Origin: Alphaproteobacteria bacterium
GTDB lineage: Bacteria; Pseudomonadota; Alphaproteobacteria; DSM-16000; Inquilinaceae
Length of the DNA stretch: 39,531 bases
NCBI GenBank assembly: GCA_028281985.1
Contig: JANQIU010000310.1
Location: forward strand, 1-39,531
Direction: 5' to 3'
Shown: one piece after another, positions 20,089 through 39,174 of the stretch
Position numbering within the stretch: position 1 is the first letter of the stretch
Layout: each line of letters begins with the position of its first letter
The notes under the pieces: model-generated
The model's database searches: none
Seen by the model: the letters and a program-made list of their open reading frames with translations, nothing else
What the model was told of the DNA's origin: nothing
Translations under genes and position numbers: made by a program

Positions 20089-21801
20089 CTAGTTCGCCTG
20101 GCGACGCAGGAAAGCCGGGATCTCCAGCGCATCGTCCTCGTGCCGGGGCAGGGGCGTGCGGTGGCGGATGTCCAGCCGCGGCTGGGCCGGCTGGTGCTGT
20201 GGCCGGGCTTCCGCCGGCGCCTCCTCGACGGGCGGTTCCGTCACCGTCGGTTCCGGGGCGGCCTGCGGCTGGGCGGCGGCCGGCGCTTCGGCCGCCGGTG
20301 CCGGCGTCGGCTGCTGGCTGGCCGCCTCTTCGCCACCGACCAGACCCACCATCCGCTGGAACAGGCTGCTGGAGCGCCGCCGGCCGGCGTTGCTCAGATC
20401 CGCTTCGGCATACGGGTCGGCCTGGCGCGGCTGCGCAGGGCCGAGTCGGCTCGACTGCCGCGGCGGTTCGACCGGCTTGGGCGAAATGAACATGCCTTCA
20501 CGGAACTGGGCGCGCGGCGGTCCGGCCGATTCGGGCGCCGGTTCCGGTGCCGGCTGAGGTTCGGCTGCCGCCTCCACCGCGGGAACCGGCGCCGGTTCGG
20601 CAACCGGCGCCTTCACCGGCTCGGCCATGCGGGTCACCGGGGCTTCCCGCATCTCGACATCGCGGCGGACGGCGAAGGCGGTGTTCCCGGACGCGTAGGC
20701 CATCGGGCGGGCCGGCGCGGCGGTGGCTGTCGCCGGGATCGGTGCTGCCGGCATCGCCGGGGCTTCCTCGACCCGGCTGACGCCCGACTGAGACGACACC
20801 AGGCTCAGGCCCGACGACCGGGGCAGCTGGTCTTCCTCGACGTCGATACCGGTCGCGACCACAGATACCCGGACGGTTCCCTCCATCGCCTCGTCGAAGA
20901 TGGCGCCGAAGATGATGTTGGCGTTGGCATCCACCTGATCGCGGATGTGGTTCGCCGCTTCGTCGACTTCGTACAAGGTCAGGTCCAGGCCGCCGGTGAT
21001 GTTGATCAGCACGCCGCGCGCGCCCTTCATCGACACCTCGTCCAGGAGCGGGTTCGAAACGGCTGCTTCGGCCGCATGCACGGCGCGCTTGTCGCCGGCT
21101 GCTTCGCCGGTGCCCATCATCGCCTTGCCCATCTCGGCCATGACCGTGCGGATATCGGCGAAGTCCAGGTTGATCAGGCCCGGCATCACCATCAGGTCGG
21201 TGACCCCGCGGACACCGGAATGCAGCACGTCGTCGGCCATCTTGAAGGCGTCCGCGAAGGTCGTCTTCTCGTTGGCGATGCGGAACAGGTTCTGGTTGGG
21301 GATGACAATCAGCGTGTCGACATACTGCTGCAGTTCCAAGAGCCCCTTCTCGGCGATCTGCATGCGATGCGCGCCTTCGAAGTGGAACGGCTTGGTGACC
21401 ACGCCGACCGTCAGGATACCCTGGTCGCGGGCCGCCCGGGCGATGACCGGGGCCGCACCCGTCCCTGTGCCACCGCCCATGCCGGCGGTGATGAACACCA
21501 TGTGGCTGCCTTCCAGGTAATGGACGATCTCCTCCATCGCCTCTTCGGCGGCCGCCCGGCCGACATCCGGACGCGACCCGGCGCCCAGGCCCTGGGTGAT
21601 GCCGACGCCGAGCTGCAGCCGCCGGTCGCACAGGCAACCGCTCAGCGACTGGGCGTCGGTGTTGGCCACCAGGAATTCCACGCCTTCCAGGCTGGCCTTG
21701 ATCATGTTGTTGACGGCATTGCCGCCGGCGCCGCCCACACCGACCACAGTGATCCGTGGCTTCAGCTGCAGGTCTTCACTTGGAATGCTTACGTTAATCA
21801 T
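20089..21801 (-). CDS. ftsZ: cell division GTPase FtsZ
   Basis: 570 aa. Tubulin-like GTPase that forms the Z ring. The globular domain (about 1-320) has [14 protein letters not shown] (21-34), the tubulin signature GGGTGTG (109-115), NTDAQSL and the T7 region [11 protein letters not shown]. Next comes a long linker of about 230 residues rich in Pro, Ala and Glu, and the C-terminal peptide [12 protein letters not shown] that binds FtsA and other partners. The linker is long, as in many alphaproteobacteria. Two cysteines (56 and 58, SGCLCDRR) lie where most FtsZ have none. It follows ftsA by 121 bp. Confidence 0.98.
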
Positions 21802-21922
21802 CTTGCTCTCGCTCCCTCTCGCTCGCTCGCCGTAATGGCTGCCCGACCCCGCCGCTGTGCGGTCCCAGGGGCCCCCTCGTGCCGCCGCGATCCTCCGCGG
21901 CAGCGGATCTCGTCCGTGTTGG

Positions 21923-23194
21923 TCATGTGCCCAGGCTCTCCTTCAGCCAGCCGCCGACACGGCTCCACCAACCGCCGGCCGCGTCGTCGCCCGATCCCAG
22001 CTGGGTCAGGTCGGTGCGGTGCCGGATGGCGTAGGTCAGCAGGCCGGCGACCCCGGAAAAGGCTGGGCCACAGGTCGCTTCGGCCATGCCCTGCAGCGGC
22101 ATCGGCCGGCCCATGCGCACCTGCTTGTCGAGGATCTGCTGGGCCATCTCGCGGATGCCCTGGATCTGGCTGGCGCCACCGGTCAGGACGACGCGGCGGC
22201 CGGCGATGCCGGACACGCCGGCATCGTGCAGCCGGCCGCGCACCATCTCGAAGATCTCCTCCAGGCGCGGCTGGATGATCCCGGTCAGCAGGCTTTTGGG
22301 CACATGATTGGCCCGTGCCGGCTCGTCCTCGCCGATCTGCGGAACGTCGATGATTTCCCGCTCGTCGGCGATGTTGGCGACGGCCGCGCCAAACAGAGTC
22401 TTGATCCGTTCGGCATGGCTGATCGGCGTCGTCAGCCCGCGGGCGATGTCGCTGGTCACGTGCGAGCCGCCGACCGGCAGGCAGTCGGAAAACACCATGT
22501 TGCCGTCGAAGAAGACGGAGATCCCCGTGGTGCCGCCGCCCATGTCCAGGACGGTGCAGCCCAGCTCCCGCTCGTCGTCAACGAGGCAGGCCAGCCCGGA
22601 GGCGTAGGGGCCGAGCACGAAGGCGTCGACCTCCAGATGGCACCGGCCGATGCAGCTTGCGAGATTGCGGATCGCACCCGACGCCGCCGTCACCACATGC
22701 AGCTCGACCCCCAACCGTTCGCCGACCATGCCGCGCGGATCGCGCACGCCGCGGTGGCCGTCCAGGCTGTAGGACACGGGGATGGCGTGCAGGACCTCGC
22801 AGTCCGGCGGGATCTCGGCCTGATGATGGGCGCGCAGGGCGCGTCGCAGATCCGCGTCGCCGACCTCGTGTCCGGCGATCGACAGCTCAACGCCGATGGT
22901 CTGGGATGCCGGATAGCCGCCGGAGATGCAGGCGATCACCGATCGCACCCGCGCATCGGCCATCTGCTCGGCGGAGTTGACCGCATGGGCGACGGCGCGG
23001 GACGCCGACTCCATGTCGACCACGCCGCCCGAGCGGATGCCGTGCGAGGCCTGGTGCCCGATACCAACGATTTCCGGGCGCCCGTCGTCGGACAGCCGGG
23101 CAATGAAGCAGACGACCTTGGTGGAGCCGACATCAAGCGCCGCCACCACCTCGCCGCGGTTCCATCCCCGGTATCTGCGACCGTTGAATCCCAT
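21923..23194 (-). CDS. ftsA: cell division protein FtsA
   Basis: 423 aa actin-like ATPase that tethers FtsZ to the membrane. Phosphate 1 motif [16 protein letters not shown] near residue 20, the FtsA-specific 1C subdomain (about 90-170), phosphate 2 motif [16 protein letters not shown] near 215, and the adenosine motif [16 protein letters not shown] near 345. The C-terminus [14 protein letters not shown] is an amphipathic membrane-targeting helix. It lies between ftsQ (43 bp upstream) and ftsZ. Confidence 0.97.
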
Positions 23195-23237
23195 TACCGC
23201 GCGTCCCTTCGGGATACTTCTTGTTGCATCAGGCCGA

Positions 23238-24053
23238 TCACGTGCTTTCCTCCGGCAACTGCCAGCGTTCGTGCGCCAGCGGCGACACGCGGATGAAGGC
23301 CCGGTCGGGCAAGCGCATGTCGATCACCACCACATCGCGGTCCAGGACGGCTGCCTCGTCGTGCAACCGCTCCAGCTTGGTCAGGGCTGACGCGACGCCG
23401 TCTTCGGGAAGCTGAACCGTGACGCCGTTGGCCAGGCGCAGATCCCAGCGCCGTTCGCCGACCCGGACGGCGGCATGGACCCGGCCCGCCAGGGCTTGGG
23501 TTTCCGCGACCTGGGCCAGGAAACTGGTCGCATGGCTGGGCGCATCGGCGCCAACCACCAGCGGCAGATGGTCGAAGGCCTCCAGCCCGTCCTCGGCCAG
23601 CACGACGCCGTCCGCATCGATCAGGCGCAGGCGGTGGTCCAACTGCCAGATCGCCATCGGCCGCCGTTCGCCCACCTCCACCAGGAGCGTGTCGGGCAGG
23701 CGTCGGGCGATCTGCGCCCGGGACACCCAGGGCAGTTCCTCCAGCGCCAGCCGGGCCTCCTCCAGGTCGACCGACAGGATCGGATCGCCCCGGCTGACCG
23801 CAATCGCGGCCAGAAGGTCGTCCGGCGCGGTTCGGTTGCGCCCGTCGACGAGGACCTCCTCGACACGCAGGCCCAGCCTGACGGTCAGGGCAACGGCCCC
23901 GTCGCCGACAGCCTGTGCGGCCGACTGGATACGGCCGCTGCTCCAGGCCCAGGTGCCCGTACCCAGCACGGCAAGGGCGAGCAGGGCGATGCCGGCGATC
24001 CGAGCCCGCCGGGTGATCAGCCGGGGGCGGCGCAGTTCCTGGGCGCGCTTCAT
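23238..24053 (-). CDS. ftsQ: cell division protein FtsQ
   Basis: 271 aa from ATG 24053 (MKRAQELRR), which overlaps the ddl stop as ATGA; ATG 24062 would add three residues, and the ORF track start at 24275 is an artefact that reads through ddl. Basic cytoplasmic tail, one transmembrane helix (about 17-38, IAGIALLALAVLGTGTWAW), then the POTRA domain (VEEVLVDGRNRTAPDDLLAAI ... LPWVSRAQIARRLPDTL) and the FtsQ beta domain. It links the cytoplasmic ring to the periplasmic septal machinery. Length is normal. Confidence 0.95.
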   Translation of the reverse strand: MKRAQELRRPRLITRRARIAGIALLALAVLGTGTWAWSSGRIQSAAQAVGDGAVALTVRLGLRVEEVLVDGRNRTAPDDLLAAIAVSRGDPILSVDLEEARLALEELPWVSRAQIARRLPDTLLVEVGERRPMAIWQLDHRLRLIDADGVVLAEDGLEAFDHLPLVVGADAPSHATSFLAQVAETQALAGRVHAAVRVGERRWDLRLANGVTVQLPEDGVASALTKLERLHDEAAVLDRDVVVIDMRLPDRAFIRVSPLAHERWQLPEEST

Positions 24054-24967
24054 GCGTGGCATTGCGCCGTCTCCACAAGCCAGGTGCACATGTCTTCGAA
24101 GCCGATCCCAAGCGTCTGCGCCTGTTCGGGGATCAGCGAGATCGGGGTGAAGCCGGGCTGGGTGTTGATCTCCAGGAAGTACAGGCCGTCGACCCCCGGT
24201 TGGCTGTCGTCCCAGCGGAAGTCGCTGCGGCTGATGCCGGTGCAGCCCAGCGCCCGGTGCGCCGCCAATGCCCACTCCATGGCCGTCTGAAACAGCGGGT
24301 CGGGTACCCTGGCCGGCAACACATGCTCGGCATGCCCGGCGGTGTACTTCGCCTCGTAGTCGAAGAAGCCGTGGGAATGCAGGATCTCCGTCACCGACAG
24401 GGCACGATCGCCCATCACGCCCACGGTCAATTCCCGTCCCGGGATAAAGGGTTCGACCAACACCGGGCCATAGGCCCAGTCGGCCAGATTGAGCGCGGGC
24501 GCGTTGGCCCCCTGATGGACAATGTGGACCCCGACCGACGAACCTTCGCAGGCCGGCTTGACCACATAGGGCGGGTCCAGCAGGTGCCCGGCGACGACTT
24601 CCTGCGCGTCGGCGACGCGACCGTCGACGACCTGCACGCCGGCTGCCGCCACCAGGCGCTTGGCCAACGGCTTATCCATGGCGACCGCGGAGGCAGTCGG
24701 CCCCGAATGGGTGTAGGGGAGGCCGAGCACCTCCAGCACCGACTGGATCACGCCGTCCTCGCCACCGCGCCCGTGCAGGGCGTTGAAGGCGACGTGCGGC
24801 AGCGGCTCGAGGGCCGCCAGCAGGGCCGGAAGGTCGCGGTGGACATCGATTTCGATGACGTCGTAGCCACGCCGGGACAGGGCTTCGGCGGCAGCCCGGC
24901 CGGAGACCAGGCTGACCTCGCGTTCGGCGGACCAGCCGCCCATCAGGATGGCGACCCGCTTAGCCAT
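24050..24967 (-). CDS. ddl: D-alanine--D-alanine ligase
   Basis: 305 aa ATP-grasp enzyme joining two D-Ala for the pentapeptide stem. N-terminal VAILMGGWSAEREVSLVSG, FNALHGRGGEDG, the ATP-grasp entry MDKPLAKRLVAAAGV, PACEGSSVGVHIV, and the Mg-binding end FLEINTQPGFTPISLIPEQA. ATG 24967 overlaps the murB TAA by 8 bp. DdlB type, as expected inside a dcw cluster. Its stop overlaps the ftsQ start (ATGA), so the two are probably translationally coupled. Confidence 0.97.
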   Translation of the reverse strand: MAKRVAILMGGWSAEREVSLVSGRAAAEALSRRGYDVIEIDVHRDLPALLAALEPLPHVAFNALHGRGGEDGVIQSVLEVLGLPYTHSGPTASAVAMDKPLAKRLVAAAGVQVVDGRVADAQEVVAGHLLDPPYVVKPACEGSSVGVHIVHQGANAPALNLADWAYGPVLVEPFIPGRELTVGVMGDRALSVTEILHSHGFFDYEAKYTAGHAEHVLPARVPDPLFQTAMEWALAAHRALGCTGISRSDFRWDDSQPGVDGLYFLEINTQPGFTPISLIPEQAQTLGIGFEDMCTWLVETAQCHA

Positions 24968-25913
24968 GGGCCGGCACCCCTTCGGCAGGGACGCCGATGC
25001 GGCGGATTTCCCAGCGCAGCTCGACGCCGAACCGGTCTTTCACCCGGCGGCGCACCTCCTCGCCCAGCGCCTCCAGATCGGCCGCGGTGGCGCTGCCGGT
25101 GTTCAGCAGGAAGTTGCAGTGCATCGGCGACACCTGCGCGCCGCCCAGGACCAGGCCGCGGCAGCCGGCCCCGTCGATCAGCTGCCACGCCTTGCCGCCT
25201 TCGGGGTTGGCGAAGGTCGACCCGCCGGTGCGGCTGCGGATCGGCTGCGTTTCGCTGCGCTGAGTCGAAATCTCGGCCATGCGCATCGCGATCCGTTCCG
25301 GGTCGCCGGGCTCGCCCACCAGTACCGCGCCGGTGAGTATCCAGTCCTGGGGCAAGCCGGAGTGCCGATAGCCGAAGCCGCAGGCATCGCCGGTCAGGGT
25401 GCGAACCTGGCCCTGGCGGTCGACGGTATCGACGGTCCACACCACGTCCTTGAACTCCCGGCCGTAGGCGCCGGCATTCATACGCAGGCCGCCGCCGATG
25501 GATCCCGGAATGCCGACCAGGAACTCCAGACCGGCGATCCCGGCTTCGCCCGCCACCCGGGCGACATGCACGTCCAGCGCCGCACTGCCGGTCGTCACCG
25601 TCGGCTCGTCTCCGGCCCGATCGACCTCGATCCCGGCAAAGCCGCGCCCAAGGCGGATCACGACACCGGGGACACCACCGTCGCGAACCAGCAGGTTCGA
25701 GGCGACGCCGATGACGGTGACCGGCACGTCGGACGGACAGTCGGCCAGGAACCCGGCCAGGTCGTCCCGGTCGACGGGCCGGAACAGGACCTCCGCCGGA
25801 CCGCCCACACGGAACCAAGTGACCGGCGCCAGCGGCGCGTTGGCCGTGATCCTGCCGCGCACCGGTGGCAGGCGGTCCAGCAGCCCGGCGGCGAATGCTT
25901 GCCGTTCGGTCAT
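24960..25913 (-). CDS. murB: UDP-N-acetylenolpyruvoylglucosamine reductase MurB
   Basis: 317 aa from ATG 25913 ([12 protein letters not shown]), which overlaps the murC TGA as ATGA; the ORF track start at 25982 lies inside murC. FAD enzyme reducing enolpyruvyl-UDP-GlcNAc to UDP-MurNAc with NADPH. FAD-binding parts: [29 protein letters not shown] and [18 protein letters not shown]. The catalytic Ser is in GGSTFANP and the catalytic Glu in the final EIRRIG; the Arg is in GYRHSGL. This YR pattern and the length fit the short type II enzymes. Confidence 0.96.
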
Positions 25914-27352
25914 GGGGACACCGCCTTCCCGGCACTGCCGGTGAACAGCGCCTTCAGCTCTCCGGGAAGGGCATTGGCCCATTGGGTGATGTTGCCGGCT
26001 CCCAGACAGACGATGTAGTCGCCAGGGCTGACCAGATCGCCGACGACTTCGGCCAGTTGGTCGGGTGCCGGCAGCGGGATCGCCATGCGATGTCCGCGGG
26101 TGCGCAGGCCGTCGACCAGGGCATCCCGGTCGATGCCTGGGATCGGGGCCTCACCGGCCGTGTAGACATCCGCGACCACGACGGCGTCGGCATCGTTGAA
26201 GCAGCCGCAGAAGTCTTCGAACAGGCTGGCCAGCCGGCTGTAGCGGTGCGGCTGCACGACGGCGACGACCCGGTGGTTGCCGCCGGTCGCGGTCCGCGCG
26301 GCGCGCAGGACGGCCGCGATCTCCACCGGATGGTGGCCGTAGTCGTCGATGACGGTGATGCCGTTGACGGTGCCCGTCTTGGTGAAGCGCCGCTTGACGC
26401 CCCCGAACCCGGCCAGCGTCCCGGCAATGTCATCGGCCGGCAGCCCCATCTCCAAGGCGACGGCGATGCCGGCCAGGGCGTTCTCCACATTGTGTTCGCC
26501 CAGCATCGGCAGATGCAGGCCGGTCAGCATCCGCTCGGCGCCGCCGTGCCGCTCGATAATCCGGACGTCGAAGCGCGCGCCATCATGGGCGATCGCCACG
26601 TTCTGGGCGCGCACGTCGGCCTGGGGGCTGAACCCGTAGGTGACGATGCGCCGGTCGAGGACCCTGGGGATCAGGGCCTGGACTTCGGGGTGATCGATGC
26701 ACATCACCGCGAAGCCGTAGAACGGCACATTGGTGACGAACTGCTCGAATGCCGCCCGGACCCCGTCGAAATCGCCGTAGAAGTCCAGGTGCTCGGGATC
26801 GATGTTGGTGACGACGGCAATGGTCGCCGGCAGCCGGGTGAAGGTGCCGTCGCTCTCGTCGGCCTCCACCACCATCCAGTCGCTGCCGCCCAATCGCGCA
26901 TTGGTGCCGTAGGCGTTGATGATCCCGCCGTTGATCACCGTCGGGTCCAGTCCGGCGCCCTCCAGCAGGCTGGCGACCAGCGAGGTCGTGGTGGTCTTGC
27001 CGTGGGTTCCGCCCACCGCGATCGACCATTTCAGCCGCATCAGTTCGCCCAGCATCTCAGCCCGGCGGACGACGGGAATGAACTGCGCCCGGGCGGCGGC
27101 GACTTCGGGGTTGTCGGACTTCACCGCGGAGGAGACGACGACGGCGGCGGCGCCGTCGACATTCTCCGGCGCATGGCCGATGACGATCTCGATCCCACGG
27201 GCACGCAACCGGCGGACATTGGCGCTTTCCGACAAATCGCTGCCGCGGACCGTGTAGCCCAGATTGTGCAGGATCTCCGCGATCCCGCTCATGCCGATCC
27301 CGCCGATGCCGACGAAGTGGATGGTGCCGATGTCCTGGGGCATCTCGCGCAT
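25910..27352 (-). CDS. murC: UDP-N-acetylmuramate--L-alanine ligase MurC
   Basis: 480 aa from ATG 27352 ([20 protein letters not shown]), which shares one base with the murG stop (TGATG) and has AGGAGG seven to eight nt upstream; the ORF track start at 27739 is inside murG. It adds L-Ala to UDP-MurNAc using ATP. The N-terminal Rossmann domain has [12 protein letters not shown], the ATPase loop is [16 protein letters not shown], then [13 protein letters not shown] and [16 protein letters not shown] in the C-terminal domain. Standard length. It is the first ligase of the pentapeptide series. Confidence 0.97.
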
Positions 27353-28473
27353 CACGCGGCCTCCTGCGCCGGCGCCAAGCGGCTGCTCGCCAGATCGAGG
27401 ACCATCCGGGCCAGCCGGTCTGCCGCGTCCGGATGGGCCATCCCATGAGCGGCGGCGGCGGCCCGGGCCAGGCCGGCGGGGTCGGCTAGCAGGTCGGTCA
27501 GGTCCGCCGCCAGCCGGTTCGGCGTGAAGGCCGGCTGTGGGATCGCCCGGGCGCCGCCGGCCGACACCAGCGCCTGGGCGTTGGCGGTCTGGTGGTCGTC
27601 GGTGGCGAACGGGTAGGGCACCAGGATCGCCGGTCTGCCGATGACGGTCAGTTCCGACATCGTCGATGCCCCGGCGCGACAGATCGCCAGATGCGCGCTG
27701 GCAAGCCGTTGCGGGATGTCGTCGAAGAAGCTCGCGCACTCGGCATCGATGCCCAGTTCAGCGTAGCGGGTCCTGACACCGTCCAGGTCCTCCGGCCGGC
27801 ACTGCTGGGTCACCGACAGTCGGCGGCGCAGGTCTTCGGACAGCGCCTCCAGGGCCGCCGGTACGACCTCCGACAGGATGCGGGCGCCCTGGCTGCCGCC
27901 AACGACGACCAGCCGCAGTCGATCACCGGCGGACGGAACTGGATAGGGCGTGCTGGCGGCGGCCAGAACTGCGGGGCGAACCGGGTTGCCGGTCTGGACG
28001 GCCCGGTCCGTCCGGTCCGCCGGTAACCGCGCCACCTGCGGAAACGAGGTGGCGATCCGGTCCACCCGGCCGGCAAGCCGCCGGTTGACCCGGCCCAGCA
28101 CCGCGTTCTGCTCGTGCACCGCCGTCGGCAATCTGTAGGCGCACGCCGCCATCATCGTCGACGCCGTGGCATAGCCGCCGAAGCCGACCACCGCACCCGG
28201 CGCGATCCGCCGCAGCAGTCGCTTCGCCTGCCGGTAGCCGCGGGCCAGCGCGGCCAGGGTGCGCAGCTTGCCGATGGGGCCGCGGCCGATCTGCGCCGCC
28301 GCAATTCGGTCCACGGCGACCTCCGGCAGCGCGCTGCCGAAGGCGCCGCCGCGGTCGTCGGTAATCAGCCGGACCTGGCAGCCTTCCGCCAGCAGCGCCC
28401 GGGCCAGCGCTTCGGCCGGGAACATGTGGCCGCCGGTGCCGCCGGCCGACAGGACGATGGTGGGCGCGGTCAT
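27352..28473 (-). CDS. murG: MurG glycosyltransferase (lipid II synthesis)
   Basis: 373 aa from ATG 28473 ([16 protein letters not shown]), which overlaps the ftsW stop as ATGA; the ORF track start at 29550 reads through ftsW. It moves GlcNAc from UDP-GlcNAc onto lipid I at the inner face of the membrane. GT-B fold with the G-loop [32 protein letters not shown], the second G-loop [16 protein letters not shown], and the donor-binding [11 protein letters not shown] and [14 protein letters not shown]. All key segments are present. Confidence 0.97.
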
Positions 28474-29597
28474 GGGTTGGCCCCCGCACCGGCCCGGCGC
28501 CGGGTCAGGGCCAGGACCATGCCGACCGTCAGGCCGGTGGCCAGCAGGGATGAGCCGCCATAGCTGACGAAGGGAAGGGTCATGCCCTTGGTCGGGATCA
28601 GGTGCAGCGTGGATCCCATATTGACCAATGCCTGAAGGCCGAACTGGGTCAGCAGGCCGGCGGTTGCCAGGAGCACGAAAAGGCTGCCGCCGTTGTGGAT
28701 GCGGGCGAAGCCGCGCAGGACGACGAAGCCGAACAGGCCGACCAGCAACAGGCACCACAGCAACCCGAACTCCTCGCCCGCCACCGCGAAGACGAAATCG
28801 GCGTGGGCGTCGGGCAACACGTGCTTGACGATGCCCTCGCCGGGCCCGGTGCCCCAGAGGCCGCCGTGCTGAAAGGCTTCGAGCGACCGCTCGATCTGGT
28901 AGTTGTCGCCGCTGCTGGGATCCAGGAACCGGTCGATCCGGCTGGCGACATGGTCGAACAGGAAGTACGACCCGAAGAGACCGCCGACGGCGACCATGGC
29001 CAACAGAACCACGAAGGCCATCGGCAATCCCGCCAGGAAGAACTGAATGCCCCACATGGCGGTGATCACGACCGCCATGCCCAGATCCGGCTGCATCAGA
29101 AGCAGGGCGACGGCAGCAAGCCATAGTCCGGTTGCGGCGACATAGCCGGGATAGCCGTCCCGCTGGTGATGCTGGGCGAACAGCCAAGCGGCGACGACGG
29201 CGATGCCCGGCTTCAGAAACTCCGACGGCTGCACCGACATGCCGGGAAGCTGCAGCCAGCGGGTGGCGCCCTTGATCTCCGCGCCTACGGCAAGGGTCAG
29301 CAGCACGCCCACGAACGCGCCGCCGCACAGGACGAAGCCCAGCCGGCGGATACCGCAGGGACCCAGCAGCGAGACGGCGAACATCGCTGCGATCGCCGGG
29401 ATCATCATGATCAGGTGGCGATGCACGAAATGGAATTCCGTCAGGCCGATGCGCTCGGCCACCGGCGGGCTGGCGGCCACGATCAGGATGGCGCCGAAGC
29501 CCACCAGGACCGCCACGGCCAGCAGCGTCCAGCGATCCACGGTCCACCACCAGCGGCCGATGACCGAGCTGTCGGTGCGAGGCAGGTTGGTCAGCAT
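28470..29597 (-). CDS. ftsW: septal peptidoglycan glycosyltransferase FtsW
   Basis: 375 aa from ATG 29597 (MLTNLPRTDSSVIGRWW), overlapping the murD stop by 7 bp; the ORF track start at 29774 adds junk from murD. SEDS-family membrane protein with about ten transmembrane helices that polymerises lipid II together with FtsI. Family landmarks: LPGMSVQPSEFLKPG near residue 115, LMQPDLGMAVVI, the extracellular loop GLWGTGPGEGIVKHVLPDAHADFVFAV, and FVSYGGSSLLATGLTVGMVLAL at the C-terminus. It pairs functionally with ftsI of the same cluster. Confidence 0.97.
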   Translation of the reverse strand: MLTNLPRTDSSVIGRWWWTVDRWTLLAVAVLVGFGAILIVAASPPVAERIGLTEFHFVHRHLIMMIPAIAAMFAVSLLGPCGIRRLGFVLCGGAFVGVLLTLAVGAEIKGATRWLQLPGMSVQPSEFLKPGIAVVAAWLFAQHHQRDGYPGYVAATGLWLAAVALLLMQPDLGMAVVITAMWGIQFFLAGLPMAFVVLLAMVAVGGLFGSYFLFDHVASRIDRFLDPSSGDNYQIERSLEAFQHGGLWGTGPGEGIVKHVLPDAHADFVFAVAGEEFGLLWCLLLVGLFGFVVLRGFARIHNGGSLFVLLATAGLLTQFGLQALVNMGSTLHLIPTKGMTLPFVSYGGSSLLATGLTVGMVLALTRRRAGAGANP

Positions 29598-30979
29598 GCC
29601 GCCACCTCTGCCCGGTTCAGCACAAGGCCGGCGAACTGCTCGCCGCGGTGCTCGAAGCTGTCGAACTGGTCGAACGAGGCGCAGGCCGGCGACAACAGCA
29701 CCACCGCGTCGGCCCGACCCGACCGGCGGGCGTCTTCGCCAGCGGCGGCCACCGCGGCGGCGAGATCGCCGCACATCTGAACCGGGACCTGGCCGGCCAG
29801 GAAGGTCTCGAACTTGGCGGCCGCCTCGCCGATCAGATAGGCACGGCGCACATTGCCCAGCATCGGCGCCAGCGCTTCCAGGCCACCCTCCTTAGGCCGG
29901 CCGCCGGCGATCCAGTAGATCGTGTCGTAGGAGGACAGGGCCCGGGCGGCAGCGTCGGGGTTGGTGGCCTTGCTGTCGTTGACGAAGCGAACGCCGCCGA
30001 TCTCCGCCACCAGTTGCTGCCGATGCGGCAGACCCGGGAAGGTCCGCAGCGCATCCGCCGCCGCCTCGGCACGGATGCCGACCGTACTGGCGACCGCGAA
30101 GGCCGCGGCCACGTTCTGCCAGTTGTGCGCGCCCGGCAGGGCAGGGATTTCAGACAGGTCCAGGACCGGCTCCGGCTCGGTGCCGGTCGCGTCGACCAGG
30201 AGACCGCCGGCGCCGGAAATCCCGACCGGCACGGGGCAGGCGCTGCCGATGGCGATCGGCCGGTGCCGTTCCCCGCCGATCACCGCCTGCAGGACCCGCC
30301 GGCTGTGCAGGTCGTCGACGCCGACGATGGCGACGGCATCCTCCGTGGCTCGCCGGAACAGGCGCGCCTTGGCGGCGGCGTAGTCGGGCATGCCGTCATA
30401 CCGGTCCAGATGATCCGGCGAGATGTTCAAGAGAACGCCGATCGACCAGTCGACCTGGGTGATGGACTCGAGCTGGAAGGAACTGACCTCCAGCACGTAC
30501 CAGCCGTCGGCCCCGATCGGCTCCAGGTCCAGCACCGGCGTGCCCAGATTGCCGCCGACGGCGCAGGAAACGCCGGCGGACTGCAGCAGGTGGCCGATCA
30601 GCGCGGTGGTGGTCGACTTCCCGTTGGTGCCGGTGATGCCGATGAAGCGGGCCTGAGGCTGTGCCAGGGCCAGCAGGTCGATGTCCGACACGATCGGAAT
30701 CTGCCACTGGGCCGCGACGGCGACGGCCGGGTGCGGCTTCGGCAAGCGTCGCGGGATCCCCGGCGACAGGACCATCATGTCCGCGCCATCCAGCGCCGAC
30801 TCCGCCGGATCGGCCAGCGTCAGACCCGCCAGGCGTGCCTTCTCGCGCGCGGCCGGCGCGTCGTCCCAAACGGTCACCTCCACGCCGGCCGAGGCCAGGG
30901 CGCGGCCGGAGGCCAGGCCGGTTCGGCCCAGCCCCAGCACGGCGATGCGCCGGCCCCTCAGGAAGCGGAGGTCGATCAT
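29591..30979 (-). CDS. murD: UDP-N-acetylmuramoylalanine--D-glutamate ligase MurD
   Basis: 462 aa. It adds D-Glu to UDP-MurNAc-L-Ala. N-terminal Rossmann part IAVLGLGRTGLASGRAL, ATP loop GITGTNGKSTTTALIGHLL, VLEVSSFQLESI, NISPDHLDRYDGM with the Mur ligase metal/His region, and FVNDSKATNPDAAARAL in the C-terminal domain. It starts 7 bp after mraY and overlaps ftsW by 7 bp. Length is normal. Confidence 0.97.
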   Translation of the reverse strand: MIDLRFLRGRRIAVLGLGRTGLASGRALASAGVEVTVWDDAPAAREKARLAGLTLADPAESALDGADMMVLSPGIPRRLPKPHPAVAVAAQWQIPIVSDIDLLALAQPQARFIGITGTNGKSTTTALIGHLLQSAGVSCAVGGNLGTPVLDLEPIGADGWYVLEVSSFQLESITQVDWSIGVLLNISPDHLDRYDGMPDYAAAKARLFRRATEDAVAIVGVDDLHSRRVLQAVIGGERHRPIAIGSACPVPVGISGAGGLLVDATGTEPEPVLDLSEIPALPGAHNWQNVAAAFAVASTVGIRAEAAADALRTFPGLPHRQQLVAEIGGVRFVNDSKATNPDAAARALSSYDTIYWIAGGRPKEGGLEALAPMLGNVRRAYLIGEAAAKFETFLAGQVPVQMCGDLAAAVAAAGEDARRSGRADAVVLLSPACASFDQFDSFEHRGEQFAGLVLNRAEVAAC

Positions 30980-30986
30980 CGCCCGC

Positions 30987-32069
30987 CTACCGCAGCTTCA
31001 GGGTCGACAGGCCGATCAGCGCCAGCACCACGGCGATGATCCAGAACCGGATGACGACGGTCGGTTCGGCCCAGCCCTTCTTCTCGTAGTGGTGGTGCAG
31101 CGGTGCCATCCGGAAGACGCGCTTGCCGGTCATCTTGAACGAGGCGACCTGGACGACGACCGACACCGTTTCCAGCACGAACAGCCCGCCGATGATGGCC
31201 AGAACGAACTCGTGCTTGGTGACGACAGCGATCGACCCCAGCGCGCCACCGATGGACAGCGAACCGGTATCGCCCATGAAGACCATGGCGGGCGGCGCGT
31301 TGAACCACAGAAAGCCCAACCCGCCGCCGATCATCGCACCGCAGAAGACCGCCAGTTCCCCGGCGCCGACCACGTGGTTGATCTGCAGGTAGTTGGCGAA
31401 AATCACATTGCCGGCCAGATAGGCGATCAGGCCGAAGCAGGCGGCAGCGATCATCACCGGCACGATGGCCAGACCGTCCAGCCCGTCCGTCAGGTTCACC
31501 GCGTTGGACGCGCCGACGATGACGAAGATGGCGAAGGGCAGGAAGACCCAGCCCAGGATGAACAGGTAGTCCTTGACGAAGGGGAAGGCGAGGCCGCTGG
31601 ACAGCGGCTCCGGCGACGACATCATGAACCAGATGACCGCGGCGCAGGAGATGCCGACCTGGGTCAGCAGCTTCATCCGGCCGGGCAGGCCGCGGCTGTT
31701 GCGCTTGGTCAGCTTCAGATAGTCGTCCATGGCGCCGACCAGGCCGAACCCGACCGTCACCATCAGGACGATCCACAGATAGGTGTTGGTCCACTGCGCC
31801 CAGAGCAGGGTGGACACCACGACCGAGATCAGGATCAGCAGCCCGCCCATGGTCGGCGTGCCGCGCTTGCCGAAATGGTCCGGTCCGTCGTCGCGGATCG
31901 GCTGGCCTTCCCGCTGCTTGCGCTTCAGCCACGAGATGGTCCGCGGGCCGATCACGAAGGCGATCAGCAACGCCGTCATCAGCGCGCCGCCGGTGCGGAA
32001 CGTCAGGTACTGGAACAGGTTGAAGGCGAAGAAGTCGTCCGCCAGCGGGAACAGCAGGTGATAAAGCAT
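30987..32069 (-). CDS. mraY: phospho-MurNAc-pentapeptide transferase MraY
   Basis: 360 aa, ten-helix membrane enzyme making lipid I from UDP-MurNAc-pentapeptide and undecaprenyl phosphate. Motifs: [12 protein letters not shown], the Asp pair in [42 protein letters not shown] and the histidine loop [13 protein letters not shown]. Size and topology are typical. It lies 5 bp after murF. Confidence 0.98.
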
Positions 32070-32074
32070 GCCGC

Positions 32075-33529
32075 TCAGTCCCCGTTGACGACACGGCGGG
32101 GCGGTTCCGCCGGAACGCCGCTGCTACTATCCAGATTGGCCAGGGTATCGACGACCAGCCCCATGCGGCTGCCGAGGGATCCCTTGACCATGACGGCATC
32201 GCCGGCCTGGACCGACCCGGCCACCATCGGGGCCAGTTCGCTGCTGGTCTCGGCCCAGCCGCCGCGCATCTGCTCCGGCAGGGTGTCGTAGAGTGCGCGC
32301 ATGTTCGGGCCGCAGGCGAAGACCAGGTCGATCGCCGCCCCCATCAGAGGCAGTTTCAGGCCGAGATGCAGCGGTTCGGCATGCTCGCCCAGCTCCAGCA
32401 TGTCACCCAGAACGGCGATGTGCCGGCCGGCGTCGCCCACATCGGCCTGGGCCAGGACGGTCAGCGACGCCGCCACGGAAACCGGGCTGGCATTGTAGCT
32501 TTCGTCGATCAGCAGGAAGGCGCCGCCGCCGGCACGGTCGAGCCGGATCCGGGTGCGGGCGCCGCGCCCCTTCAGCGGGCTGATCCGCGACAGGGTTCGG
32601 GCGGCCGTGGTCACATCGGCACCGGTGGCCTTGACCGCCAGTAGCACGGCCAGGCTGTTCATCACCCAGTGCTTGCCCGGGGCGGCGAGCGAGTACTGGA
32701 TCGGCTCGCCCCGGATCACCGCGTTGACGGCGCTGGCGGTCGGGTGAAGCGAGCAATCCAGCAGGCGCGCATCGGCGGAACTGTGTTCGCCGAAGCTCCA
32801 GATTCGGCTGATGCCCTGTGTCTGGGCATGGGCCTGCAGCCGGGGGAAATGCGGGTTGTCGCGGTTGAGCACCGCGGCCGAGGGCGGCGCCATGCCGGCG
32901 AAGATTTCGGCCTTGGCGTCGGCAATGCCCTCGACGCCGTCGAAATTCTCGATATGGACGGCGGCGATGGTCGTGATGATGGCGACGTCCGGCTTCACTA
33001 GGCGCGACAGCGGTTCGATTTCGCCGGCATGGTTCATGCCCAGCTCGAACACGCCGAAATCCGCGTCCGCCGGCATCCGCGCCAGGCTTAGCGGGACGCC
33101 CCAGTGATTGTTGTGGCTGCTGGCGCTGGCGTGGGTTCGACCCTGGGGATCAAGGCCGAGTTTCAGTGCCTCCTTGGTGCCGGTCTTGCCGACCGATCCG
33201 GTGATCCCGATGACCCGGGCCCGGCTGCGCAACCGGGCGTAGGAGGCCAGCTGGTTCAGGCCGGCGAAGGTGTCGTCGACCACCAGAAGCGGTGCGGTTT
33301 CCAGCCCCACCGGGACCTGGCTGACCATCGCGGCCGCGGCGCCGCGCTTCAGGGCGTCATTGACGAAGTCGTGCCCGTCGAACCGCGGGCCTTCCAGCGC
33401 CACGAACAGGTCGCCGGGCTGGAGTGTTCGGGTGTCGATCGAGACGCCGGTCGCCGACCAGTGACCGATCGGGGTACCGTCGGTGGCCGCACCGGCATCG
33501 ACTGCCGTCCAGAGCGGCAAAGGCGTCAT
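32075..33529 (-). CDS. murF: UDP-MurNAc-tripeptide--D-Ala-D-Ala ligase MurF
   Basis: 484 aa. It attaches D-Ala-D-Ala (product of Ddl) to UDP-MurNAc-tripeptide. N-terminal substrate domain has [20 protein letters not shown] loop [44 protein letters not shown]; and the C-terminal [18 protein letters not shown] 33529 overlaps the murE stop as ATGA, indicating coupled translation. Confidence 0.97.
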
Positions 33530-35037
33530 GGAATGCCTCCCCTATCGGGTTGTGGCCGGGCACCACCCAGGGCGGCGACGGCTGCGCGGACTTCCGCTGC
33601 GTCATCAAACGGCCGGCGGCGGTCGCCGACGATCTGCCCGCTTTCGTGACCCTTGCCGGCGACGACCAGAAGGTCGCCTGCCCGCAGATCGGCAACGGCG
33701 GCCAGGATCGCGGCCCGACGATCGCCGATCTCTTCCGCACCCGGCGCGGCTGCCAGGGCGGCCGCGCGGATCGACGCGGGGTCCTCGTTACGGGGATTGT
33801 CGTCGGTGACGATGACGCGGTCGGCCAGCTCGCAGGCAGCCCGGCCCATCTCCGGCCGCTTGCCGGGGTCGCGGTCGCCGCCACAACCGAACACCACGAC
33901 CAGGCGCCCGCGGGCGTGCTGGCGGATGGCGGCCAGAACAGTGCGCAGCGCATCGGGCGTATGGGCGTAGTCCACATAGACCGGCGCGCCGCTTGGGTGC
34001 ACGGCCACCTGCTCCATCCGCCCGCGGGCGCCGTGCAGATGGCCCAGCGCGTCGACCGCCGTGTCGATGTCCATGCTGTCATCGGCCAGGATCAGGCCCA
34101 GCGCGCACAGGGCGTTGGCAACCTGGAACTCGCCGGCCAGGGGCAGATGCACCTGCTTCTCCCGGCCGAAAACGGCCAGTCGCAGATCAATGCCCGCGGG
34201 GTCCGGCGTTGCCGCAAGCAACTGCAGGTCCGACCCGCTGCGCCGTCCGTAGCGCATGATCCGGGCCCGCCGGTTCGCCGCGGCCGTCTCGATGGCGGGG
34301 GCCTGGGGGATGTCGGCATTGATCACCGCCGTGCCGCCATCGACCAGCACGGTATCGAACAGCCTGATCTTGGCGGCCAGATAGGCATCCTCGCTGCCAT
34401 GGTAGTCCAGATGGTCGCGGCTCAGATTGGTGAACCCGGCTGCGCTGACGCGCACGCCGTCGAGCCGCCGCTGATCGAGGCCGTGCGACGAGGCTTCCAT
34501 CGCCAGATGGCCGACGCCGTCATGGTGCAGGTCGGCCAGAAGCTGGTGCAGTTCCGCGGCGTCCGGCGTCGTCAACGTGCCGGAGCGGTGGCCGTCGGGT
34601 GCATCGAGCCCAAGCGTGCCGAGGCTTGCGGCCCGGAAACCGAGCCGGTGCCAGATCTGCCGGGCAAAGGTGGCGACGGACGTCTTACCGTTCGTGCCGG
34701 TCACGGCAACGACCACTTCCGGCTGCATCTGGAAGTGGTCCGCCGCCAGCCGGGCGTAGCACCGGCGGGGATCGGCGTCGGTCAAGAACCGGTCATCGGG
34801 GATTTCGACAGGCCTCGGCGTGCCGGCCGGGGCCAGGATCACCGTCGCCCCCCGGGCGATGGCGTCACCGATGAAGGCGCGCCCGTCATGCGTCGACCCC
34901 GGCAGCGCGGCGAACAGGAAGCCCGGCTGCACCTTGCGGGAATCCGCGGTGACCCCGGTTACGCCCGGCGGCAGCGCCAGGGATCCTTCCCCGTCCCGGT
35001 GGCCCGCCTGTGTCGCTTCAAGCGCCATCGCGATCAT
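33526..35037 (-). CDS. murE: UDP-MurNAc-L-Ala-D-Glu--meso-diaminopimelate ligase MurE
   Basis: 503 aa. It adds the third stem residue. VTADSRKVQPGFLFAALPG at the N-terminus, ATP loop VTGTNGKTSVATFARQIW, TTPDAAELHQLLADL, NLSRDHLDYHGSEDAYLAAK, and DNPRNEDPASI near residue 420; the DNPR motif marks enzymes that use meso-diaminopimelate, as in Gram-negatives. Starts ATG 35037 (ATGA with the ftsI stop) or ATG 35028. Confidence 0.97.
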   Translation of the reverse strand: MIAMALEATQAGHRDGEGSLALPPGVTGVTADSRKVQPGFLFAALPGSTHDGRAFIGDAIARGATVILAPAGTPRPVEIPDDRFLTDADPRRCYARLAADHFQMQPEVVVAVTGTNGKTSVATFARQIWHRLGFRAASLGTLGLDAPDGHRSGTLTTPDAAELHQLLADLHHDGVGHLAMEASSHGLDQRRLDGVRVSAAGFTNLSRDHLDYHGSEDAYLAAKIRLFDTVLVDGGTAVINADIPQAPAIETAAANRRARIMRYGRRSGSDLQLLAATPDPAGIDLRLAVFGREKQVHLPLAGEFQVANALCALGLILADDSMDIDTAVDALGHLHGARGRMEQVAVHPSGAPVYVDYAHTPDALRTVLAAIRQHARGRLVVVFGCGGDRDPGKRPEMGRAACELADRVIVTDDNPRNEDPASIRAAALAAAPGAEEIGDRRAAILAAVADLRAGDLLVVAGKGHESGQIVGDRRRPFDDAAEVRAAVAALGGARPQPDRGGIP

Positions 35038-36773
35038 CGGCTCGCAGCCGGCATCACCCGGCTTTCTTCAGGAGTGACAGCAACGTAGAGCGCATCGCGG
35101 ATGTCCGGCGCCTCCGCGTCGATCGGCATCAGGCCGACCATGGGTCCGATCCGCTCCACCACCTGCCGGACCACCGGGGCGGCGACCCAGCCGCCGGTCG
35201 CATAGCCGAAGGTGCGCTCGTTGCCCCTGGGCTCATCCAACATGACAAAGATGACGTAACGCGGGTCGTTCATGGGAAATGCCGCGACGAAGGAAGAGAC
35301 CAGGGCCGACCGGGCGTACCCGCCGGCAGCCACCTTCTCGGCCGTTCCCGTCTTGCCGCCGACCAGATAGCCCTCGGCATCGGCGTTGCGGCCGGTGCCG
35401 TTCTCCACCACCAGGCGCAGCAGGCGGCGCACGGTGTCCGAGGTCGCTTCCGAGATCACCCGCTCGCCTTCCGGCAGGTCGCCCGTGGGGCGGTGCAGCA
35501 GCGTGGTCGGACGCATGATCCCGCCGTTGACCGTGGCAGCCACGGCGCCGGCCAGCTGAACCGGGCTGACCGCCATGCCGTGGCCGAAGGCGATGGTCAT
35601 GGTGTTGACTTCGCGCCAGGGGTCCGGGAGCAGCGGCCGCCCGACTTCGGGCATCTCGACCGGCGACGGATCGAGCAGTCCGAGACGGCGCAGATAGTCC
35701 TGCTGGCCGGCGGTGCCCAGATCCATGGCCATGTGCACCGAACCGATGTTCGACGAGTACATGAAGATTTCCGGGACCGTCAGCCAGCGGGCCTCGGGAT
35801 GGAAATCGTTGATGGTGAACCGGCCGACACGGATCGGGTTGGTGGCGTCATAGCCGCCACTGACGCTGGTGACGCCGGCATCCAGGGCCATGGCCGTGGT
35901 GAAGATCTTGAACGTGGACCCCATCTCATAGAGGCCCAGCGTGCTCCGGTTGAAGCGCTCTTCCTCCGGCGCGTCGGCGCGGTCATAGGGATTGAAATCC
36001 GGCAGCGACACCATCGCCAGCAACTCGCCGCTGTCGACATCCAGGATGACGCCGGCGCCGCCGATCGCCTGGAACTCGTCCATGGCGACGGCAATCTCCT
36101 CGCGCAGCACTTCCTGCAGCCTGACATCCAAGGCCAGGGCCACCGGCTCCGACGCGCCGCGAAGCTGGTCGTCCAGGGTCAGTTCCATGCCGGTCAGGCC
36201 GACGCCGTCGACATCCGTGTAGCCGACGATATGCGAGCTCAACGCGCCGGTGGGGTAGACCCGTCGCTCTTCCGACTGGAAGGCCAGGCCGGGAATGCCC
36301 AGGCGGTTGATCTCGTACTGCTCGGTCGGGGTCAGCCCGCGCTTGATCCAAACGAACCGGCGATCGGTACTGAGCTGCTCGCGGACCCAGTCGGCATCCA
36401 GCTCGGGCAGGATGCCGGTCAGGCGCAGGGCGGCCTCGTCGGCATCGATCACCAGCGCCGGATCGGCGAACAGGGATGCCGTCGGCACGCTGGTTGCCAG
36501 CAGCACGCCGTTTCGGTCGGTGATGTCGGCCCGGGCGACCGGGTGGTAGGCCGCCGGTGCTGCCATCGGGCGTCCGAGATCGTCTACGGCCATGACCGAC
36601 AGGTCGAACAGGCGGGCGCCGACTGCCACAAAGGCCAGGGCGAAGACGACACCGGTGATGGCCAGGCGCACGCGCCCCATATCCAACGCTTCCGCCGCCT
36701 GTCCGGACATCCGAACCCGGCGCGTCGGCGTCGCGCGCAGATCCTGTCGCGCCCTTTCCGCGCCAACGGTCAT
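35034..36773 (-). CDS. ftsI: septal transpeptidase FtsI (PBP3)
   Basis: 579 aa from ATG 36773, overlapping the ftsL stop as ATGA; the ORF track start at 37331 reads through ftsL. Class B penicillin-binding protein cross-linking septal peptidoglycan. Short basic cytoplasmic tail, one membrane helix (about 36-58), pedestal domain with RADITDRNGVLLATS, then the transpeptidase domain: STFK (286-289, catalytic Ser), SSN (340-342) and KTG (474-476). It partners with FtsW; FtsL and FtsQ are its recruitment partners. Confidence 0.97.
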   Translation of the reverse strand: MTVGAERARQDLRATPTRRVRMSGQAAEALDMGRVRLAITGVVFALAFVAVGARLFDLSVMAVDDLGRPMAAPAAYHPVARADITDRNGVLLATSVPTASLFADPALVIDADEAALRLTGILPELDADWVREQLSTDRRFVWIKRGLTPTEQYEINRLGIPGLAFQSEERRVYPTGALSSHIVGYTDVDGVGLTGMELTLDDQLRGASEPVALALDVRLQEVLREEIAVAMDEFQAIGGAGVILDVDSGELLAMVSLPDFNPYDRADAPEEERFNRSTLGLYEMGSTFKIFTTAMALDAGVTSVSGGYDATNPIRVGRFTINDFHPEARWLTVPEIFMYSSNIGSVHMAMDLGTAGQQDYLRRLGLLDPSPVEMPEVGRPLLPDPWREVNTMTIAFGHGMAVSPVQLAGAVAATVNGGIMRPTTLLHRPTGDLPEGERVISEATSDTVRRLLRLVVENGTGRNADAEGYLVGGKTGTAEKVAAGGYARSALVSSFVAAFPMNDPRYVIFVMLDEPRGNERTFGYATGGWVAAPVVRQVVERIGPMVGLMPIDAEAPDIRDALYVAVTPEESRVMPAASR

Positions 36774-37354
36774 TGCACGGCTCCTTCGGCCGGCTGGTCG
36801 ATCCCCAGATCCGTCAGCAGCGAGGCAAGGCCACCGCGATCCAGGGACTCCGGCGTCGCTTCGGCCGTCTCCCCTGGAACGTTGGCTTCGTCGGTGGCGG
36901 CAACCGGCTCTGCTGCCCCAGCGGGCGCCACCGAAACAGGCGCGGGCAGTGGGCGCCGCTCGGGGGTTCTGGGAGGCAGGACCATGGCCTGCAGGATGGG
37001 ATCCTCGGTACCCACGACCCGCGCCAGGAGCATCTCCAGGTCGGTCGGTTCCGCTGCAACACTCTCGGGTTGGGGCAGCGGCATCGGCAGCACCGCGGCG
37101 GATTCGATCACCTGCCCAGGCGTGATCGGCACCAGCGAGGTCAACTCCCGGGCCAGGTTGCGCAGGCGTTCGGGCTGGTTGAGATACGACCATTCCGCCC
37201 GCAGGACGCGAATGGCCTCCTGCTCCCGGACGATGTCGCGATTGAGGGCGGAAAGATCCTCCTCCAGGGCGGTCACATCGTAGCTGACATGGAACAGGAC
37301 GCCGGCCGCGCCTGCGATCAGCCATACCCACATGAGGACGCCGAGCCGGATCAT
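36770..37354 (-). CDS. ftsL: cell division protein FtsL, with long C-terminal tail
   Basis: 194 aa. One transmembrane helix at about residues 4-22 ([18 protein letters not shown]), then the periplasmic coiled coil [42 protein letters not shown], the recognisable alphaproteobacterial FtsL signature. After about residue 88 comes a roughly 105-residue tail rich in Pro, Ala and Glu with no fold I recognise. The position between rsmH and ftsI supports the call. It would form the FtsQ-FtsL-FtsB-type complex that activates FtsWI. It is longer than most FtsL proteins (about 90-140 aa). Confidence 0.92.
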
Positions 37355-38322
37355 GCTACGCCCTCCAATGGCGTTGCCGGCCAGGCCGGCGCCTCGGTGC
37401 GGATTGCCGCGCGAAGGCGTGCGGATCGGGCGCGCGGATTGGCGGCCGCTTCGCGCTCCCCGGGGCGGACCGGACGCCTGGAGACCAGCCGGAAGGTGGG
37501 GGCGGGGCGCTGCACCGGTTGGACCGGCATGTGCCGGGACACCGCCTTGGCGCCGGCGCCCGTGCGTTCGTTCAGGAACCGCTTGACCCGACGGTCCTCC
37601 AGGCTGTGGAAGGCCACGACCGCCAGACGTCCCCCCGGGCCCAGGGCGCGTTCCGCCGCCTGCAGGCCGCGGTCCAGTTCGCCCAGCTCGTCGTTCACGC
37701 GGATCCGAAGGGCCTGAAAGGTTCGGGTGGCCGGATCGATGCCGTCGCGCGCCCGCGGCACGACCTGCCGAACGATCTCCGCCAGCTGGCTCGTCCGGTC
37801 GATCGGGGACCGCTGGCGGGCGCCGATGATGGCTCGGGCAATCCGGCGGGCCAGCCGCTCCTCGCCTAGGTCGCGCAGGGTGGTGGCCAGATCCTCTTCC
37901 GGCAGGGCGTTGACCAGATCTGCGGCGGTCGGCCCGTCGCGCCCCATGCGCATGTCCAGCGGTCCGTCGCTGCGGAAGGAAAAGCCGCGCTCCGGCGTAT
38001 CGATCTGGGGTGACGAGACGCCCAGATCGAAGGTGACGCCGTCGACCGCCGCCATGCCCAAGCGCCCGGCAATCCGGTCAAGCGTGCCGAAACGCCCTTC
38101 GACAAGGGTCAGCCGCCCCCCATAGCGCGTTTCCAGAGGTGCGCCGGCGGCCAGGGCGGCGGGGTCCCGATCGATGCCGATCACCCGGCAATCCGCCGCA
38201 TCGAGCATCCCCTGCGCGTATCCGCCGCGCCCGAAGGTCGCATCGATCAGGGTGTCGCCGTCCCGCGGGGTCAGGGCCGCAAGGGTTTCAGCCAGCAGGA
38301 CCGGTTGATGCAGGCCGGTCAT
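37351..38322 (-). CDS. rsmH: 16S rRNA (cytosine1402-N4)-methyltransferase RsmH
   Basis: 323 aa (MraW family). It methylates N4 of C1402 in the P site of 16S rRNA with S-adenosylmethionine. [13 protein letters not shown] at the N-terminus, SAM motif [46 protein letters not shown] and [15 protein letters not shown]. The inserted helical domain (about 105-215) is present. ATG 38322 overlaps the mraZ stop as ATGA. Confidence 0.97.
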
Positions 38323-38774
38323 TGCGCGCTCCGCGGGGCTGCCGGCAGCGTCTTGCCCTTCAGGCGGTCGACGTTGTTCTTGCGATGCTCCGCCAGCCGG
38401 TCCGGATGCCAGATCTGGAAGCGTGTGTTCAGGCCGACGAAGCTGGCCTGCTCGGTGATTTCGGCGAAGTCGATCAGCTCGCGGGGCAGGATGATGCGGC
38501 CTTCGGGATCGACGGTCAGCCGGTGGCTGGCACCGAAATAGGCCTGCTCGAACCCCTCGCGTTCTTCGGAGTTGATGGCCAGGACGTCGATGCGACGCTC
38601 AATATCGCTCATGAATGCTTCGGTGAGGCCTTCAAGGCACCCGGTTCCTGTATCGGGGCGCAAGTAAACGACGTTCCCACCCATCTGATCGAGCGCGGCC
38701 CGAAAGGTCGCGGGAACACTAACGCGTCCCTTCTTGTCGACCTTGTTCACCACAGTGGACGTGAAACGGGCCAT
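38319..38774 (-). CDS. mraZ: transcriptional regulator MraZ
   Basis: 151 aa. Two SpoVT/AbrB-like half domains: [16 protein letters not shown] (about 10-25) and [16 protein letters not shown] (about 90-105), the paired (D/N)xKGR(I/V)xxP motifs of MraZ. It is known to bind TGGG direct repeats in its own promoter and repress the dcw operon. It heads the cluster here, and such repeats are found upstream (38886-38920). Length is normal. Confidence 0.96.
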
Positions 38775-38885
38775 CCGTCCCCCAAAAGCACCTGAATTGG
38801 CGCTTCAGCTCATGCGCCGGCTCCCCGTTGCGTTGTCTGCGACCGCCACGGCGACGACGGACCGATCCCTTGTTCCGGGTTCGTA

Positions 38886-38920
38886 TGGGCTAGCATGGGT
38901 AAACGTGGGTCGTCAATGGG
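38886..38920 (-). promoter_or_regulatory. MraZ-binding TGGG repeats
   Basis: Read on the plus strand, TGGG occurs at 38886, 38896, 38906 and 38917, so the first three are exactly 10 bp apart and the fourth 11 bp. E. coli MraZ binds TGGGN repeats with 5-nt spacers, the same pitch. The boxes overlap and flank the -35 and -10 elements, a layout suited to repression of the whole dcw operon. Confidence 0.7.
38889..38916 (-). promoter_or_regulatory. dcw operon promoter upstream of mraZ
   Basis: On the minus strand TTGACG (38916-38911) and GCTAGC (38894-38889) are separated by 16 nt. TTGACG matches the alphaproteobacterial -35 exactly and GCTAGCCC matches six of eight in GCTANAWC. Expected start of transcription is near 38882, giving a leader of about 108 nt before the mraZ ATG. 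Confidence 0.6.
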
Positions 38921-39174
38921 ATCGCGAGTATTCTTGTGGATGAACTGATGGAAATTGTCCCGTTTCTGAGCGGCTTCAGAGATGCCGTTATGGTAAAAAT
39001 TGCGTTTATAAGTAAAGAGTTGACATACCAATCTTTAACACCCATTGAGGTTTGTTCGTTTTATGTTCTGATTTTTGGGCGATTTCATGGCCTGATCCCG
39101 CGCTGCGGGCCGGCAAAACAGCGCGCCGGGGGCAGGTCGGGATGGCTTTCGGGGTCGGTGGTGGGTTGTCCCAT

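Follow-up and report, generated by a model that had tools for sequence, protein, structure and literature searches.

A predicted MraZ operator interleaved with the mraZ promoter, inverted and conserved across Alphaproteobacteria

Few bacterial transcription factors are as conserved as MraZ; to our knowledge, studies of its operator cover few lineages. The E. coli mraZ operator, treated by Eraso et al. in 2014, reportedly consists of three TGGG repeats bound by MraZ. The PmraBc promoter of Burkholderia cenocepacia carries four repeats at a 10-bp period (7 nt plus a 3-nt spacer), for which a gel shift with MraZ has been published (PMC7761207). As cited in two papers, the Mollicute operator has the form (AAAGTGK-N3)3, three direct repeats recognized by MraZ, which acts as an oligomer and regulates its own operon (PMC5282649, PMC8475190). 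Binding of MraZ to 10-bp-period repeats is on record for Burkholderia and Mollicutes (PMC7761207, PMC5282649, PMC8475190), and repression by MraZ for E. coli and Mycoplasma genitalium (PMC7761207, PMC8475190). Two alphaproteobacterial mraZ promoters have been described: mapped RNA data give S. meliloti mraZ a 5' UTR of 170 nt, and the sole mraZ/UpsM promoter of R. sphaeroides lies 268 nt upstream, with a terminator and an sRNA in its leader and no repeats mentioned in the text of the paper (PMC5089854). MraZ autorepression is a known system; a class-specific promoter-operator arrangement is without description in the literature that we searched (subscription papers and regulon databases lay outside its scope), and no report of an inverted MraZ array in Alphaproteobacteria was found there, nor any binding or expression result for a MraZ of this class.

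The window, that is, the whole stretch of 39,531 nucleotides analysed here, comes from an Inquilinaceae contig (JANQIU010000310.1) and holds the following genes around the mraZ promoter:

20089..38322, minus strand: the fifteen dcw genes that come after mraZ, rsmH to ftsZ, presumably downstream of the mraZ promoter
38319..38774, minus strand: mraZ, 151 aa, with the DxxGR motifs DKKGR and DPEGR
39247 to the contig end, same strand as mraZ: rnpB, which precedes mraZ

After mraZ, the genes run in the order rsmH, ftsL, ftsI, murE, murF, mraY, murD, ftsW, murG, murC, murB, ddl, ftsQ, ftsA and ftsZ, so that the dcw run comprises sixteen one-strand genes, most of which overlap or are separated by a few bases; ftsZ follows a gap of 121 nt. 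The first-pass annotation had predicted that MraZ shuts off all sixteen directly. The sixteen genes from mraZ to ftsZ are indeed present, but the array lies at the mraZ promoter only and the 121-nt gap precedes ftsZ; direct silencing of the entire run does not follow, because it depends on internal promoters. Described dcw clusters vary in this respect: MraZ repression in E. coli reaches the first eleven genes only, from mraZ to murC (PMC7761207), B. cenocepacia makes a single dcw message from mraZ to ftsZ (PMC7761207), and the R. sphaeroides cluster has been described with seven conserved promoters (PMC9275681).

Upstream of mraZ, the array consists of the following boxes:

38876..38879, plus strand: box D, a degenerate CGGG on the downstream side, in exact 10-bp register; CCCA in many relatives
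38886..38889, plus strand: box C, TGGG (CCCA on the mraZ strand), forming the end of the -10 element
38896..38899, plus strand: box B, TGGG, immediately ahead of the TG of the extended -10; served as the anchor when the class was aligned
38906..38909, plus strand: box A, TGGG, in the promoter spacer just downstream of the -35 element; conserved
38917..38920, plus strand: upstream box, TGGG, abutting the -35 element, 11 bp from box A; (C/T)CCA is kept next to TTGA in relatives

The four TGGG boxes begin exactly at the positions first reported, 38886, 38896, 38906 and 38917, while the in-register degenerate box at 38876 had been missed. Read in the direction of mraZ, this stretch is CCCATTGACGACCCACGTTTACCCATGCTAGCCCATACGAACCCGG. 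Spacings of 10, 10 and 11 bp place the four boxes on one face of the helix, as had been proposed (31 bp is about three turns). The array thus has the build of an MraZ operator, with at least three TGG(G) direct repeats at a 10-bp period (three exact, one at 11 bp, one degenerate in register), and it stands directly upstream of mraZ at its promoter, as it does in relatives. A loose three-box pattern occurs at a single place in the window (two overlapping matches, 0.33 expected), and 7 of 100 shuffles also reach two matches; exact-period three-box arrays number three in the 4.3-Mb assembly, one of them the array upstream of mraZ, with 1 match for the reversed control. Because of these counts, the window by itself gives weak to modest evidence, and it is conservation across relatives that we take as decisive for the array being real.

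The promoter elements are these:

38911..38916, minus strand: -35 element TTGACG, with TTGA here or at the adjacent position in 101 of 115 anchored alphaproteobacteria
38887..38895, minus strand: probable extended -10 element TGcTAGCCC (consensus TGnTATCCC), from the class alignment and the S. meliloti start-site match
38880, minus strand: predicted mraZ transcription start A38880, from the S. meliloti register, with a leader of 106 nt

The promoter had initially been read as TTGACG-16-GCTAGC. TTGACG is right (38911-38916, minus strand), but GCTAGC and the 16-bp spacer are probably 2 bp off: the conserved -10 is probably the extended element TGcTAGCCC (38895-38887, minus strand), at a spacing of 18, to judge from the alignment of relatives. 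The anchor of that alignment required CATG.TA, which leaves the unspecified base and the flanking positions as its informative parts; that base, between TG and TA, varies freely, consistent with the extended -10 form TGnTAnnnn. CCCA at the box C register is conserved at 87-99% per position. No consensus promoter was reported upstream of mraZ by a promoter scanner, as is to be expected of a conserved -10 that lacks a T at its last position. The start site was placed by means of S. meliloti (L202), in which 176 nt separate the end of the array from the mraZ ATG. With -7 placed at the last C of TATCCC, the predicted leader is 171 nt, against the published 170 nt; the same register therefore puts the predicted start in the window at A38880, and the array extends from about -39 to about +5 relative to that start. 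A degenerate CCCA array is also found about 260-270 nt upstream of mraZ in two genomes with long leaders (L444 and L447, Rhodobacteraceae-like, family inferred), at the distance of the established promoter of R. sphaeroides. A weakly conserved TTTAC(T) is seen 12-17 nt (about 1.5 turns) upstream of the -35 TTGA in many alphaproteobacteria and at about 38927-38932 in the window.

Compared with the E. coli operator, the array shares a TGGG core, a 10-bp period and a position upstream of an mraZ that heads the dcw cluster. In E. coli, the boxes (GTGGGAAATTGTGGGGCAAAGTGGG, with the TGGG core repeated at exactly 10 bp) are found on the coding strand, in the stretch that separates the promoter from mraZ, whereas those of the window lie on the template strand over the core promoter. 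Neither feature of the E. coli arrangement is thus seen here: the boxes stand on the strand opposite to mraZ, as the first-pass annotation had it and as they do class-wide, and the array spans the promoter instead of the interval between the -10 and the start codon. The base before TGGG is A in the alphaproteobacterial consensus and G in E. coli. PmraBc resembles the window in having four repeats of 10-bp period ahead of a dcw run from mraZ to ftsZ; it has a GTG core, however, and lies downstream of the -10 overlapping the start site, whereas the array of the window is inverted and lies over the promoter core. The Mollicute operator shares the 10-bp period and differs in the letters around the core.

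Conservation was assessed in the mraZ upstream regions of 147 alphaproteobacterial genomes. Of these 147 regions, 101 have three or more CCCA boxes, repeated at exactly 10 bp along the coding strand of mraZ, so the search of relatives suggested by the first-pass annotation found both the array and its orientation conserved. None of these regions has a CCCA array at a period of 6-9 or 11-15 bp, dinucleotide shuffles yielded no exact 10-bp CCCA array in ten replicates, and coding-strand TGGG arrays of the same length occur in 1 of 147. Chance repetition in G+C-rich DNA, for which the two further exact three-box arrays in the 4.3-Mb genome might be cited, is already refuted by a single period, register and orientation kept class-wide and never seen in shuffles, and we regard it as extremely improbable. 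One alphaproteobacterium (L448) has an mraZ upstream region without a CCCA array, in which two coding-strand TGGG boxes stand 10 bp apart instead.

Anchored on the second box, 115 genomes give the consensus TTGACn(n)CCCATnnnnTCCCATGnTATCCCATnnnnnCCCA, in which the distance of TTGA from the boxes comes in two forms, a short one in 68 genomes and one longer by a single base in 33. The promoter of the window is of the longer form, and a 1-bp expansion between the -35 and the array is seen in 28 of 96 alignable genomes. In the short form, (C/T)CCA stands upstream of TTGA in the 10-bp register (CCCA in 30 of 68); where the long form has such a box, it shifts to 11 bp together with the -35. It is because (C/T)CCA travels with the -35 that the fourth box of the window appears shifted. 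The one-base shift noted at first is therefore real, as an 11-bp step, but is explained as a recurrent variant in which box and -35 move together. As to the suggestion that the reversed orientation might alter affinity, that orientation is the norm of the class, and so a local weakening by it is unlikely.

The array is also tied to the presence of mraZ. In 61 genomes (the window's own and relatives), 41 of 43 matches to CCCAT-N5-CCCAT-N5-CCCA lie at mraZ by coordinates, and the reversed control gives 1 match in the same set. When GTDB species genomes were scanned for four boxes, alphaproteobacterial matches with a detectable mraZ had it immediately downstream, and matches in other phyla were mostly simple tandem repeats; at the named alphaproteobacterial loci with both an array and a detected mraZ, the two are adjacent and in the expected order. 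A relaxed array was found in 102 of 147 MraZ-positive and 2 of 28 MraZ-negative alphaproteobacteria, some of the latter being small or incomplete genomes (Fisher p about 5e-10), so that array and mraZ co-occur; the comparison is conservative, because upstream regions were set against whole genomes. Of the two exceptions, one has its array at a contig end, so that the assembly may simply not include its mraZ; the second, which lacks TTGA, is probably a chance match. These data bear on the alternative that the array is the site of another cell-division regulator, or an intrinsic promoter feature, linked to MraZ by position only. NtrX, CenR and CtrA have all been placed at alphaproteobacterial mraZ promoters (PMC7240162, PMC9275681, PMC3616915), a CtrA motif upstream of mraZ being reported for S. 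meliloti (PMC3616915). Yet the TGGG boxes repeat at 10 bp as known MraZ sites do, the array is essentially absent from alphaproteobacteria without mraZ, and neither the motif published for NtrX, GCA-N9-TGC, nor that of CtrA resembles it; a role for such a regulator in place of MraZ is quite unlikely.

In the samples from outside the class, the orientation is the reverse. Among 39 gamma/beta-type genomes, a sample dominated by one family, which leaves the edges of the pattern uncertain, 17 have at least three coding-strand GTGG boxes at period 10, and none has a CCCA array at that period. Coding-strand GTG arrays were found in 29 of 30 genomes sampled from the phylum of Butyricicoccus (Bacillota), 18 of 30 from that of Frankia (Actinomycetota) and 16 of 27 in a sample centred on a Deltaproteobacteria-named genome, and these three samples contain no CAC or CCCA arrays. 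Since GTG(G) is on the coding strand elsewhere, it is the Alphaproteobacteria that, within these samples, are marked by an inverted array interleaved with the promoter.

The MraZ protein of the window scores above the Pfam MraZ cut-off and belongs to the family by its two AbrB-like halves, each with a DxxGR whose D, G and R columns are invariant. Solved structures of MraZ include 1n0e, 9qlg, 9qlr and 9sx6. Residue 91, in the second DxxGR loop (DPEGR in the window), is E or D in 98% of 95 alphaproteobacterial sequences; among 88 sequences of other phyla, 85% have Q there, and gamma/beta sequences have Q, A, S, H or N. Residue 10 is mostly N in alphaproteobacteria versus mostly H elsewhere. The acidic residue 91 suggests that DNA contacts of the alphaproteobacterial protein may differ from those of other MraZ. 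A strict rule by which E or D at residue 91 sets operator orientation was considered and rejected, as Sphingomonadaceae- and Rhodobacteraceae-like genomes without E/D mostly keep CCCA arrays. There is an even chance, in our judgment, that at or near the root of the Alphaproteobacteria an inverted ATGGG array, interleaved with the core promoter, took the place of an ancestral operator with coding-strand GTGG boxes downstream of the -10, along with MraZ loop changes (H10 to N; Q to E/D at 91) and with a shift from a downstream block to polymerase exclusion. If so, the polarity of the array relative to the promoter would be unnecessary for repression.

An array of this period, orientation and conservation, held in register with the promoter and found together with mraZ, is very probably the MraZ operator of the mraZ promoter, at which bound MraZ would exclude RNA polymerase and so bring about autorepression. 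An orientation and a position unlike those of the E. coli and Burkholderia operators count against this reading, as does the acidic residue 91. Successive subunits of an MraZ ring would read boxes one helical turn apart from a single face of the DNA. The -35 has a box against it, the spacer contains another, a third comes before the extended -10 and a fourth makes up its end; with boxes and promoter so interleaved, binding of MraZ and of polymerase should be mutually exclusive. MraZ would then repress the mraZ transcript, along with as much of the dcw cluster as is read from this promoter, a negative feedback. Steric exclusion is the simplest mechanism, preferable to a fixed contact between MraZ and polymerase, because the alphaproteobacterial array is inverted and shifted upstream compared with that of other bacteria. 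Alternatively, MraZ might use the same operator to activate or mainly modulate the promoter, with no exclusion of polymerase. The box polarity opposite to that of E. coli would suit such a role, and the weak -10 (TAGCCC, without the last T, which the scanner did not recognize) might in principle be remodelled by the bound ring; but boxes cover both core promoter elements, and the MraZ of E. coli and that of Mycoplasma genitalium are repressors (PMC7761207, PMC8475190), which makes such a role unlikely. The opposite polarity and the different position of the array, kept across the class to which Caulobacter, Sinorhizobium and Rhodobacter belong, make the way an MraZ ring represses directly testable. 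The alphaproteobacterial models of the cell cycle would gain a precise predicted MraZ target, and the sequence of their mraZ promoter an explanation as an interleaved promoter-operator.

Other elements lie upstream of mraZ as well. Between rnpB and the mraZ promoter there is a GAAC-N7-GAAC direct repeat (39054-39068, minus strand, GAACATAAAACGAAC), which we take to be the form of alphaproteobacterial LexA boxes. It occurs within 600 nt of mraZ in 60 of 147 alphaproteobacterial upstream regions, compared with 3 on average in shuffles and with 1 of 39 non-alphaproteobacteria. This suggests that something transcribed into the dcw operon, or close to it, is under SOS control. A conserved small ORF that could be an SOS-induced gene was not found between the LexA-like box and mraZ; recurrent ORFs there were set aside as candidates since they are on the reverse strand, run into the rnpB side and were judged antisense to rnpB. 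In eight Sphingomonadaceae-like genomes (L453, L454, L455, L457, L460, L461, L462 and L464), a DnaA-box-like TTATCCACAG lies some 200-300 nt upstream of mraZ; the counterpart in the window is looser, TTCATCCACA, at about 38935-38944.
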